In this document: in pieces, positions 53,953 to 59,100 of the stretch | Position numbering within the stretch: position 1 is the first letter of the stretch | How the letters are laid out: each line of letters begins with the position of its first letter | NCBI GenBank assembly: GCA_004369045.1 | Contig: ML213511.1 | Coordinates: 61,195 to 125,194, forward strand | Length of the DNA: 64,000 nt | Source of the DNA: Heliocybe sulcata | Lineage: Eukaryota; Basidiomycota; Agaricomycetes; Gloeophyllales; Gloeophyllaceae | Direction: 5' to 3' | The notes under the pieces: generated by a model | Told to the model about the DNA's origin: nothing | Databases searched by the model: none | What the model saw: the letters and a program-made list of their open reading frames with translations, nothing else | Made by a program: the position numbers and the translations under genes

Positions 53953-54358
53953 ATCCCGAGTACTACAGACGATTCCAACTTGAGTTACGGCAAAGCCTAT
54001 TAAGCTTTAAGGCCTTTAATCGTCGCGCTGGGTGTGATAGTCGTATTGAGCCACAGAAAGGGCGTAACGGAGGGTCTCGCTTATACAAAACGGATAGCAA
54101 TGTTGATGGATCAGAAGATCCGTTAAGTTGTGGGCCGCGCCACAAGCGCGACGCGACTTTCAGTAACAAATATGACCAAATAGTGGGTGTGGCTTTGTGT
54201 GCTTCATAATCTCAGTGGGCTGCTGTCCAGATTTTTGCGTGACCTTGCGTATGTTTCATCCTGCCTCTATTCGCTGGGAGAATCTCCTCCTATACTCACA
54301 CGTACAAGTTTATCTGCATGCTACTTAGCCTCTCCACGTAGTCCCATTCACCCGAAGG
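53953..54358. other. Short intergenic region
   Basis: About 400 bp between the PMS start and the THI5 stop, same strand. It presumably holds the PMS promoter and the THI5 3' UTR; no specific site is recognised. Confidence 0.55.
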
Positions 54359-56085
54359 TCAAGCCGAGACCGCGACAGCAGGACTGAAGGTCGCCACCTT
54401 GACAGCGGGAACGGCGCTCAGAACGCCTCCCTTGGCCTTAACCTCCTCCTGCTTAGCGGCAACAATGCGCTGGTTCTCGTCAGGGTCCGCGATGTCAGGG
54501 TTGCGAGTCCACGAGAGATAGTCGTTCGAATAGTTGGGCTCGAAATCCTCTCCTACGACGCCCAGGCGCTTGCAATAATTGGTGACCTTCGTCCAGTCCT
54601 GGCGAACAAAGATATTAGAATCAAGCTGAATAACTCTCGCAGTCCACATTTACCCGAGGGACATTGGCACAGTCCCGAGACATGTAGGTGAAGCTCCGCT
54701 CGAAGATCTTGGCGTTCAGCGGAGTATTCATTGGCTTCTTGAAAAGCTTGTACTCTTCCCAAGCCTGCACCGGGTCAGCGAAGAGATACTCAGCGGCCTT
54801 TTTGACCGCGCGCATGAATGCTTTGACTTTCTCCGGGTTGGCCTTCAGGAAAGGTTCGTTCGCGATGTACACTGCGGATGAAGGTTAACGGTCAAATACG
54901 AAATGATAGTTGAACTACAACTCACAAATGGAACAGAAGCAGCAGCAACCGAGTTCAGCAAGTTGATCGATGCGCAGCATCTTCACATCACTGGTGGGGC
55001 GCTGTAGGTGCGTCAATGGAAGGGTCTTCAATTACAACTAATCAGTACTTACGCCTTGCTCCTTCAGCCACTCCTCAAGCTCGCACTGCTGTACGTTCTC
55101 GAGTCCAATACCGGCATCAATTGTACCATTGATGATCGCCTGGGACACGTTCATGCCAACTCGGATAGCTTGATAGTCACTGGGTTTCATCCCGTAGTAC
55201 CTAGTGAGTTCGTCGATCTGTTGCAGCATGAGAGGCAAGTTTGAGACATCTGATATATCCGACTCTGTACCTGAATCTTTCCGAATTCGCCAACGTAGCC
55301 GATACGCTTGCCCTTGAGGCTACGGAAGTCTGAAGTAACTCTAGATCCTTCTAGATAGATCACACCCGTGAAAGGCTGTCATTCGCATCAGTACACCCTT
55401 CATACTAAGGGACCCAGGCAGTGCCGCTCTCGACGCATGCATGAACATGATCCGATGATGACGGTTTGAATCTCAGCCTGGCCCTGGCCCTTCCTTTGCA
55501 AGCAAAGCAAGCAGCCGGCACAGACACCCGTGTGCACTACCAGTACTTCTCCCGAAAGAGAAGACTGCTGAGCATACATTACCGGGACATTATGGTTTCA
55601 AATCATGGGATGGAGCGTCAAGACCAGCTGGCTGGGAGCCGCTCCAACGAGCAGGACAAACCTCCTGAATATGAAGATCAATGGCCGGCTACAAATGGTA
55701 TACTTGCTAGGACGCACATCCATCAGGGTCCCCACAGATCGGATCGGAAATCCGCGAGCAGCGCCAGCGATACTGAGAAATACTTAGAAGATGTTCCACG
55801 ATCTCTGGCCTACGATGAATCGTACGTATGGATCATGGCTTTGGCACCCATATCGATCTTGCCAGAGCCGATGATTTCAGTAACATCGGAAGGATCGTTC
55901 GGCTCTACCGGCGTATGAAAGGGACTCTCAGGACGTTTCATGAATCGGAGACGACGGAACACACCGATGATAGCGACCTTGATGCCTTCGTCCGCAAAGT
56001 ACCCCTTCGATTGTGCAAGGAAGATGGGGGCATGGTAGGGCGTTGCATGCCAATTCAGGAGGAATGTGATCTTGTCAGTGGACAT
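54359..56085 (-). CDS. THI5: THI5/NMT1-type HMP-P synthase (thiamine pyrimidine)
   Basis: Makes 4-amino-5-hydroxymethyl-2-methylpyrimidine phosphate for thiamine. In the yeast enzyme the substrate histidine lies in its own active site, so it is single-turnover (family knowledge). Exons: 56085-55965, 55904-55826, 55772-55718, 55375-55271, 55217-55053, 55001-... to the stop at 54359; phases agree. The start is [20 protein letters not shown]. Key residues: KAMIH (Lys and donor His), the iron site CCCFC (LGCCCFCSI), [42 protein letters not shown] and [10 protein letters not shown]. The C-terminal tail is Ala/Val-rich. The intron after TLMD is 342 nt, against about 50-60 nt for the others, and contains a TPP riboswitch. 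Reading through it meets a stop after about 40 codons, so its retention would abolish the protein. Feedback control by thiamine is therefore likely. Confidence 0.94.
55417..55541 (-). promoter_or_regulatory. TPP (THI-box) riboswitch aptamer in a THI5 intron
   Basis: Transcribed on the minus strand with THI5. P1 pairs GGUAGUGC (55541-55534) with GCACUGCC (55424-55417), 8 bp. P2 pairs ACGG (55531-55528) with CCGU (55464-55461). P3 is an extended arm with apical hairpin CUUUGC/GCAAAG (55494-55507). The pyrimidine-binding CUGAGA is at 55476-55471. The P4-P5 arm aligns without gaps to the E. coli thiM arm: P4 UCG/CGA (CCU/AGG in thiM), GAU, P5 CAUG/CAUG (CUGG/CCAG), loop UUCAUG (AUAAUG), CGU, closing GA. 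Compensatory changes in P4 and P5 argue for a functional fold. It ends 41 nt before the 3' splice site. Splicing control as in Neurospora NMT1 is inferred. Confidence 0.9.
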
Positions 56086-56164
56086 GATAGTGCGAAAGAT
56101 GGAAGTAGATTGAGACGTCGGTATGGAAAGATGAGATAGCCCAACGAACTGCGCCCCGGGACCG

Positions 56165-56172
56165 TTTATATA
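56165..56172 (-). promoter_or_regulatory. TATA box of THI5
   Basis: TATATAAA on the minus strand, about 80 bp upstream of the THI5 ATG. Confidence 0.55.
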
Positions 56173-59100
56173 TGGCCATCCTGTTCTTGAGTGGTCATAG
56201 GAAGCATCCTGCATGACTGGCCATATGACGAGCCATTGATCCGTCTTTGTCCAGGGATAGAATCCTTCATGCACATTGGACGATAACGAGGGCATATCGA
56301 TTGGGATATTGATATCTGGGTGTGTGACTCAGCTACTCTTGGCCCAGTGCAGTAACTCCTTTGACTCCAAACATCGTCTTCCTTCACAGAATGCCAGCCT
56401 GAGTTCGCCAAACTCAGACGCTTGCTTGCTCTGTAAGTACGGTCTCTTCACGTTCCTGAGTCGAGCGAACGTGCATTAAGCCCCGCAGAGGTTAGAGGAG
56501 ATCTAACAGAAAATGCCGCGTACCAGGTGGTCTGTACCAGTTGCACTGCTACGCCTACTCTAAGGAGGAGTGCTATGCAGCCTCGAGAGATAGTAGAAGC
56601 CGAGCATCCCAGCTTAATGCAGACAGGAGATTCTTTCCATTCGAGGTGCAGGTGGATCAATAACGTGCCCAAACGCACATCACCCGAGAGAACCGGACTC
56701 CATTTCTGCGTACCAGCGCAATGTGAGGAGAATACGCACTTCGCGTTTGGCCACTGTTTTTTTGCGGTAAGCTCCACGTCATGCCCGCCAGGAGGTCCGT
56801 TTGGTCTCAGAGAGTCTGTCTCTGCCTTTAAGCCGTGGGCATGATGGTCAGATGCGCCGAGAGTCGCAGAAAAGGCCTTGGGACGTGTACAGCTAGAGTC
56901 GCAAGATCGCTGTGACGCACAGATCAGCGCTCGGCTTTCATAGTAGCTTCTCCAAGGCTGAGAGGGTAACGAGAGAGTAGAGCGCTGGAGGAGACACGCA
57001 TCGACGCACGGTACTGGCTCTGTATCCAGGCTCAGCCCTGTTGAGCGCTCGGGGAAGGAGGCAAAGCACAAGTCGACAAGTTCAGATACTCAGATGCTGG
57101 GTCTCGTCGGACTTCAAGGCGCTACTTAAACCACGATGCTAGCAAATCTCAAGGTCCAATTGAGCATGCTTGGTGTATACCAACGCCTTTTGTGAGTCGT
57201 GGCATATGGCAACAGGGAATGAGCAGCTTGTCCACAGCGAGTGAGCAGGTCTATCCGAACGTCCCGCTGTAGACAAATTATTTTTGGAGTATAGCTGACC
57301 CCAGACAGCCTGTGCTTGACATGTTAGTCGTGAGCTCAATATTGTGGCATTGCATTGCGACTAACAAGTCTTAAGATCTGGTACTACCTGCGAAAGTATC
57401 TCCATATGTATGGTTAACTAGTCTGAGGGCGAGTCTATCTATAAGTATTTGATGTCGCTTCTCTTCGTGGATAGTCGAAGTTAGCAAATATACGGTCGTC
57501 CTCCACCGCGGCTTGCAAAGCAAATTGTGATGTGCCTGTCATGGAGCTTGTGCCCCTTTCCCGCTATTATAGCGCCGACGCAACTCGCAACAACTGCTGA
57601 CATAGAGCAGGCCTTATGATTAGTGAACTTCATCTATTTGTATCCACGTAAGAATCATTTTTAGTCATTATCCGAAGCACTTAGGTTCGTAAACAAGAGT
57701 ACTTAACATCATCCAGATATTCAGTCAGCATGATTCAGAGATTGTGAGCAAGCAATAAGTACAGTACAGGGAACAGGGCAATACATGTTAGCCGAGCGCA
57801 TCACACCGAGCCTAGTAGGCAGGCAAGACATGTAAGTTGCACCCCGAGCTATACCTGCATCACGTACGATCCAGCTGAATGGTACGATCCAATTGCCGCC
57901 CATCCCTATATGGGAGCACCTGGCCAAGTTAATCCTCTAAGTTCATGCGAGAGCTCCGAGGGCGCCAGAACAGGCCGCAGACGACTTCCCCGAGCTCGAG
58001 AAACCGCATTCTGATGGTTCGGACAAAGCCGATCAGCAACAGCCACAGTGCTCTCGAGGACAGGGAGCGGGGAATTCTCAAAACGCGGACTAATACAGCT
58101 GTAGATTCATGAACAGAGTCGTCTGAATAAATCAAGCAACCTTGGCTGAAGTAACACACCTCATAGACCTTCGTAAGCGCTTCCTGAGTCACCGCAACAT
58201 GTCTGCAAGTCCCGTATGTGATTCGGACTAGGAGCTCGGTCCGGACGTAGTTCGCGCTCTGGATCAGATGTGCTGATGGCGATGAGAGTACCAGATGCAA
58301 GCCAGTATTGTGCAGCATCAAGAAGCAGGAAAGCAGCTTGCGGCAAAATACCCTGATCAAGAACGACGGCGAGAAGCGGCAAGAGGATCGGAACTGGCAG
58401 TCCAGCGAGGCCGCTGCGAGGAAGACCCAGCCAGATCGCGCACCGGCTGAGAGGGCTTCAGGTAACGGAAAGGATGGCTAGAGAATGTTGTAGCTATGCT
58501 CGGCACAGATTTTGTCGCCGTCGCTTTGTCCTTGGTTGTGAGGCATCGCTGCTTGCTGGGCGTCGTGCAAAAGAAGCTGCTCTCCGGCTTGCCACAATGC
58601 CCCTCCTTTTGGAAGGGTTCCGCATTTGCCAGATTTGTCTGTATTTGCTTCCGGTGGCACTGCGGCTACGCGCAAGATAACCACCAAGTTGCAAAAACAG
58701 CCGAAAACGAAGGATAAAAGACAGGGGAAAAAAGAAACATCGGCGCATTTGCTCGTTGAGTTCGAGGCATAGTTGTTATGAAAGGAGCGGTTAGTTACCG
58801 ACGGCGGTCGGAGCTTCCCAAGTATCAGATATTAATGCAGCAGAGACTACATATAGGTGTGTCTGGGGTCCGCCATGGTCCGAGAATAATATGTCTACAG
58901 CGGGACGTCCGGATAGACCTGCTCACTCGCTGTGGACAAGCTGCTCACTCCCTGTTGCCATAGTGGCAAGCCCGCAGACTGGATACCGTCAAGAAAGAAC
59001 AAGTCCGAACGTGAATAGACGCCACAGTGAATGACGAATATGTAGACGCCACAAACTGATACAAATACATGCTGGGCCAGGGCGAAGTTCAATAAATTTA

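Follow-up and report, generated by a model that had tools for sequence, protein, structure and literature searches.

A TPP aptamer in a coding-region intron of a basidiomycete THI5 gene, with a probable three-nucleotide exon and a probable anti-aptamer segment

The window, that is, the whole stretch of 64,000 nucleotides analysed here, carries a THI5/NMT1 gene, encoding HMP-phosphate synthase, at positions 54359 to 56085. The gene and all of its features described below lie on the minus strand, and the hand-spliced frame runs from an ATG at 56085 to a stop codon ending at 54359. The identification of the gene as THI5, proposed in the original prediction, was confirmed by a Pfam match that reveals an NMT1/THI5-like domain in the product (NMT1, PF09084, 242 bits) and by 94% identity to a Gloeophyllum trabeum protein, the closest homologue among the best 120 of 1305 matches (the next, from Exidia glandulosa, is 80% identical). 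The protein alignment also displays the sequence CCCFC, which we take to be characteristic of THI5/NMT1. The source fungus is a relative of a wood-decay fungus. No second THI5-type gene was found when the genome was searched with PF09084; the other match to this domain is a HisG-type ATP phosphoribosyltransferase (71 bits, versus 24 for NMT1) and was rejected as a second THI5. A search for THI5 relatives in viral contigs gave 12 pattern matches and no relative. Among those of the 120 listed homologues (of 1305) that carry a name, the only Agaricomycetes recognised are Gloeophyllum, Exidia and Rhizoctonia, and the distribution of THI5 may be patchy within this class.

TPP is the end product of the thiamine pathway, and a TPP aptamer lies inside the THI5 gene, spanning P1 to P1' at positions 55417 to 55541. 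The spliced frame places it in an intron of the coding region, as had been predicted. The covariance model of the TPP riboswitch, RF00059, aligns with the minus strand from 55541 to 55411 over its full length (model positions 1-105 of 105), with 36.1 bits and an E-value of 1e-4 in the 3 kb searched (54000-57000), where it is the sole Rfam match with E ≤ 1. In the 31.6-Mb genome, where 49 of 1295 first-look candidates were scored, this aptamer is the better of two RF00059 matches with E ≤ 10 (E = 2.6e-4). The RF00059 search that had been proposed as a check, carried out here on these larger stretches, gives a match at both scales. The score is nevertheless below the gathering score of 54.3 bits, which is a detection threshold and not a structural feature; for this reason, a default Rfam scan of the window lists nothing.

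The segment 55543-55410, folded without constraints, adopts the P1-P5 architecture at -48.4 kcal/mol, so that the complete aptamer with named stems that had been described from the letters is recovered both by the full-model match and by the fold. In the pair list of the predicted fold, P1 has 8 bp (55541-55534/55424-55417), P2 has 4 bp, P3 is extended, P4 pairs UCGG with UCGA (55455-55452/55433-55430) and P5 pairs CAUG with CAUG (55449-55446/55439-55436). The P4-P5 arm aligns without gaps to the Rfam consensus, base changes in P4 are compensated, and all stems are intact. The sequence CUGAGA is found at 55476-55471; the pyrimidine-recognition motif GAGAU, inside CUGAGAU, occupies 55470-55474 and the pyrophosphate motif GCG 55434-55436, and G55452 and G55434 are 18 nucleotides apart, the same spacing as in other TPP aptamers. 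These three elements are given as conserved features of TPP aptamers in the accessible part of PMC5882874. L5 reads UUCAUG, with UCAU in place of the UAAU motif (three of four bases alike). On these grounds of structure and motifs, the element is almost certainly a genuine TPP aptamer and very probably belongs to a real and functional TPP riboswitch.

The aptamer was originally assigned to a single intron of 342 nt (55717-55376), the six remaining introns of the gene measuring 51-60 nt each. The ends of this interval are sound GT-AG boundaries, and this part of the proposal stands; that it is one intron is improbable, as a division into 53 nt, GAG and 286 nt fits better. Removal of the 342 nt as a whole keeps the frame and gives a protein of 352 residues that reads TLMD-PFTG, in which a conserved glutamate is lost. 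This glutamate is present in 117 of the 120 listed THI5 homologues (of 1305 matches): 112 were counted by the pattern DE-P[FIL]TG, and reading the remainder added three with DEPATG and two with NEPFTG. It is also found in the three solved THI5/THI13 chains for which alignments were shown (four were matched). The interval contains a single AG-GAR-GY sequence, UUCAG-GAG-GUUUGU, which would define a microexon, GAG (Glu), at 55662-55664. Upstream of it, the proposed intron 3a (55665-55717, 53 nt; GUGCGU...UUCAG, with a branch-like UUGAU) resembles the other introns of the gene in length and signals; downstream, the proposed intron 3b (55376-55661, 286 nt) would carry the riboswitch between a donor, S1 (GUUUGU at 55661), and an acceptor, GACAG, ending at 55376. 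With the microexon, the protein reads ...MDEPFTG... and has 353 residues. YAG-GAR-GT occurs in 488 of 20000 dinucleotide shuffles of the interval, and in only 29 of 20000 when a first intron of 45-70 nt is imposed. An exon of three nucleotides would need no special machinery, because introns 3a and 3b can be removed successively. Short exons are known in basidiomycetes, the shortest in the P450 set of P. chrysosporium being 6 bp in the accessible part of PMC1184071. Inclusion of GAG in the mRNA, between introns of 53 and 286 nt, is therefore a likely prediction from the DNA.

The three listed homologues without the glutamate are the G. trabeum protein (P0001), the Exidia protein (P0002) and P0060. 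The residue that the microexon would encode is exactly the one missing from the G. trabeum and Exidia models, which suggests that their THI5 genes may have the same architecture. The model of Leucosporidium creatinivorum, P0060, loses more of the loop (GTL-KPFTG), possibly through another mis-drawn intron at the position of the microexon. P0015, 86% identical, keeps the glutamate within an uninterrupted frame of 298 residues on a contig of 1097 nt.

Intron 3b offers alternatives to S1, which by eye looks like a weak donor. Two candidate second donors (S2), GUAAUG from 55582 and GUAUGC from 55577, lie within 55572-55582, and an in-frame UAA at 55590-55592 separates them from S1. Translation of the isoforms gives a product of 109 residues when intron 3a is removed and either S2 donor is used or intron 3b is retained, and one of 124 residues when intron 3a is retained as well. 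The claim that retained intron sequence runs into a stop also holds for the whole 342 nt, the stop being at 55600-55598.

In the predicted ligand-free minimum free energy fold of intron 3b, a segment at 55598-55636, downstream of S1 and upstream of the aptamer, is joined by 33 base pairs to the P4, P5 and P1' strands (55455-55413), at pair probabilities of 0.78-1.0 (values are available for 26 of the 33 pairs). The strength of this complementarity was compared with that of shuffled sequences. The duplex between the upstream region and the 3' half of the aptamer has an energy of -43.9 kcal/mol, whereas shuffles average -31.8; a value as low is attained by 9 of 3000 shuffles and by 7 of 1054 other windows (6 of 2000 shuffles when the test was repeated). 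The first THI5 segments used, of 36 and 26 nt, had been picked after the sequence was viewed; the 3'-half definition was later applied alike to this gene and to the second riboswitch gene of the genome, the locus L002 described below. At L002, the duplex has -51.6 kcal/mol against a shuffle mean of -35.7, reached by 1 of 3000 shuffles and none of 762 windows (1 of 2000 on repetition). None of nine control regions attains such a level: the upstream region against the 5' half of the aptamer gave 793 of 1000 for THI5 and a borderline 64 of 1000 for L002, the lowest of all; downstream regions of the two genes gave 1111 and 1283 of 2000; exon 4, exon 3 with intron 3a, and the L002 region before the intron gave 1500, 1248 and 1638 of 2000, respectively; and exchanging the upstream regions between the two genes gave 835 and 1818 of 2000.

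The significance of the THI5 pairing requires the P1' side. The 36-nt segment is equalled by 7 of 2000 shuffled sequences, by none of 2000 shuffles of the core and by 7 of 2112 windows, and the 26 nt of P4-P5 alone pair weakly with the upstream region (143 of 2000 upstream shuffles, 57 of 2000 core shuffles, 283 of 2112 windows). The longest gapless helix has 10 bp, and 81 of 1000 shuffles contain one at least as long; the z-scores of the whole-intron minimum free energy are -1.96 for THI5 and -3.11 for L002, with 150 shuffles each. Compared with the ligand-free fold, a fold in which the aptamer is enforced loses 17.5 kcal/mol of stability, which probably exceeds what TPP binding pays for; a kinetic, co-transcriptional choice must therefore be assumed. 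Taken from folding models, an anti-aptamer in the THI5 intron is reasonably probable.

The second TPP riboswitch of the genome, at 1501-1603 of L002 (RF00059, 32.6 bits), is also below the gathering score, and so scans based on that cut-off report no TPP riboswitch in this genome. Its host is the first intron of a gene for an amino-acid permease (PF13520); in a hand-made model, this intron covers 1335-1673 (339 nt) and follows codon 27. The L5 of this second riboswitch likewise deviates from the UAAU motif. As in THI5, an in-frame stop (at 1368) precedes a later donor (GUAACG at 1408), and the intron carries a predicted anti-aptamer arranged in the same way; the flanking sequences of the two introns are unrelated. 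At the best THI4 gene, a riboswitch was sought and rejected: L009 and L010, the loci with the two exon matches of this gene and their flanks, contain no RF00059 match at E ≤ 5, five weaker THI4-type matches lying outside the scan. On L002, an eIF5B gene (1-1074) ends some 180 nt before the ATG that the hand-made model gives the permease gene (1254-2920), and three of the 120 listed permease homologues (P0131, P0137 and P0239) themselves bear the name eIF5B. PMC5882874 reports an odd riboswitch for G. trabeum, located in an intron of eIF5B, and others for Postia, located in the 3' UTRs of eIF5B; the proximity of the two genes is the probable explanation.

The original suggestion that TPP could switch off the enzyme by changing splicing can thus be given a more precise form. 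At low TPP, the anti-aptamer (55636-55598) would pair with P4-P5-P1' and break the aptamer; the resulting helix would loop out S2 and bring S1 (55661) near the acceptor (55376). Introns 3b and 3a would both be removed and GAG would join the codons for D and P, giving the full-length enzyme of 353 residues. At high TPP, the aptamer would be held together, the anti-aptamer freed and the advantage of S1 lost; splicing from S2 or retention of the intron would then add the stop, giving 109 residues, and THI5 would fall. That the element acts as an OFF switch through thiamine-dependent splicing is highly likely. The explanation as a whole, which adds the anti-aptamer and the microexon to a TPP aptamer in a coding-region intron of the sole THI5 gene found, is probable.

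Several other readings have to be weighed against this one. It is extremely improbable that the RF00059 match arose by chance: the 36.1 bits are indeed below the gathering score, but the genome-wide E-value speaks against it, and both matches of the genome fall in coding-region introns, in types of gene for which control by TPP is established. A degenerate relic that neither binds TPP nor affects splicing could account for the sub-threshold score and for the altered bases of L5 and P4, and yet it is very improbable, since the P4 changes are compensated, the stems are intact, and the motifs and their spacing are kept. Moreover, the anti-aptamer matches the altered sequence of THI5 itself: with the upstream regions exchanged between the two genes, as many as 835 and 1818 of 2000 shuffles are equally good.

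The remaining alternatives concern the mechanism and the exon. In a masking of the type I kind, as in N. crassa NMT1, the P5/P4' strand GCAUGCGU would pair at low TPP with the S2 donor AUGUAUGC (8 pairs, two of them G-U), and there would be no long anti-aptamer helix. A gapless 8-bp helix between P4-P5 and 55590-55566 is present, and the logic is that published for NMT1 in the accessible part of PMC5997356. Such a helix is unremarkable, however, because at least 8 bp are found in this stretch in 237 of 2000 shuffles, and in the fold of the whole intron the partner of P4-P5 is 55598-55628 instead, at high probability; we regard masking of S2 as unlikely. A single intron of 342 nt, in a lineage that lost the glutamate and has no microexon, would leave the riboswitch to act by retention or by choice of S2. 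The preserved frame (352 residues), the GT-AG ends and the public models of G. trabeum and Exidia, which read alike, are all consistent with it, whereas the conservation of the glutamate in nearly all listed homologues, P0015 included, and the rarity by chance of a GAG that is bordered by acceptor and donor and lies one normal intron length away argue against it; a single intron is unlikely. More speculative, and improbable as it stands, is the idea that TPP controls the inclusion of GAG itself, one outcome being an enzyme without the conserved glutamate (352 versus 353 residues), and that GAG and the P4-P5-P1' anti-aptamer form a splicing platform common to THI5 in the Agaricomycetes; such a platform is suggested by the absence of the same residue from the G. 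trabeum and Exidia models.

The favoured arrangement, with anti-aptamer and microexon, can be set beside systems already described. The original prediction set the case against known fungal examples in NMT1, located in 5' UTR introns; this contrast is incomplete, as internal-intron (Type III) and coding-sequence-intron cases have been described. Type III fungal TPP riboswitches, defined in the accessible part of PMC5882874 by an internal intron of 200-400 nt, are given there as not yet experimentally observed. By its sequence, the THI5 intron has this layout, with 286 nt (342 if unsplit) and, upstream of the aptamer, the candidate donors S1 at 55661 and S2 at 55582/55577, separated by the UAA at 55592-55590. 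It shares with the class the position in an internal intron of a thiamine gene, the in-frame stop that separates the two candidate donors and the acceptor directly before the next exon, and it differs from the description available there by the proposed 3-nt exon upstream and by the segment complementary to P4-P5-P1'. Coding-sequence-intron riboswitches are represented in the accessible part of PMC5997356 by N. crassa NCU01977 and Candida DUR31. N. crassa NMT1/THI5, from the same source, involves the same enzyme, ligand and use of alternative 5' donors; in that gene a 5' UTR intron is concerned and repression is by uORFs, whereas here the intron lies within the coding sequence and the protein would be truncated. 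In NCU01977, according to PMC5997356 and PMC5882874, a coding-sequence intron also has stops in the alternatives, and at low TPP, long-distance pairing close to the first donor may place intermediate donors in a loop; that gene, however, encodes a transporter, introns of its class measure 650-900 nt and pairing involves P1' (alpha'), while the helix proposed here extends over P4, P5 and P1' within 286 nt. The DUR31 intron likewise has two donors, a riboswitch, one acceptor and a premature stop between the donors, and thiamine raises its unspliced RNA, S. cerevisiae having served as a host for work on this intron (PMC5997356, same part); unlike THI5, DUR31 is a transporter gene of an ascomycete yeast, with the intron near its 5' end. 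The L002 riboswitch sits in a gene of the kind that carries TPPsw-AA, found in basidiomycete amino-acid transporters according to the accessible part of PMC11683625; THI5 is a different gene. By analogy, the THI5 case may join the idea put forward for NCU01977, a helix near S1 that loops out later donors, with that of NMT1, an aptamer part used as pairing element.

What is already known, then, is that TPP riboswitches occur in internal introns. Probably new are the likely 3-nt exon and the probable anti-aptamer, in a gene and phylum rarely reported: the accessible part of PMC5882874 gives a riboswitch in NMT1 outside the Ascomycota for three species only, two of them in its Basidiomycota figure, among which a relative of the host species could be found, and that of PMC11683625 records TPPsw-NMT1 as absent from the Basidiomycota surveyed. 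In a literature search of incomplete coverage, neither this locus nor a microexon next to a TPP riboswitch was encountered. An aptamer that scores below the cut-off in THI5 means that NMT1/THI5 riboswitches outside the Ascomycota may be under-counted. The microexon would illustrate that annotation can drop a conserved residue unnoticed when a regulated intron adjoins it, and a putative anti-aptamer shared by two introns of the genome that are otherwise unrelated would provide a directly testable mechanism for the predicted Type III switches.
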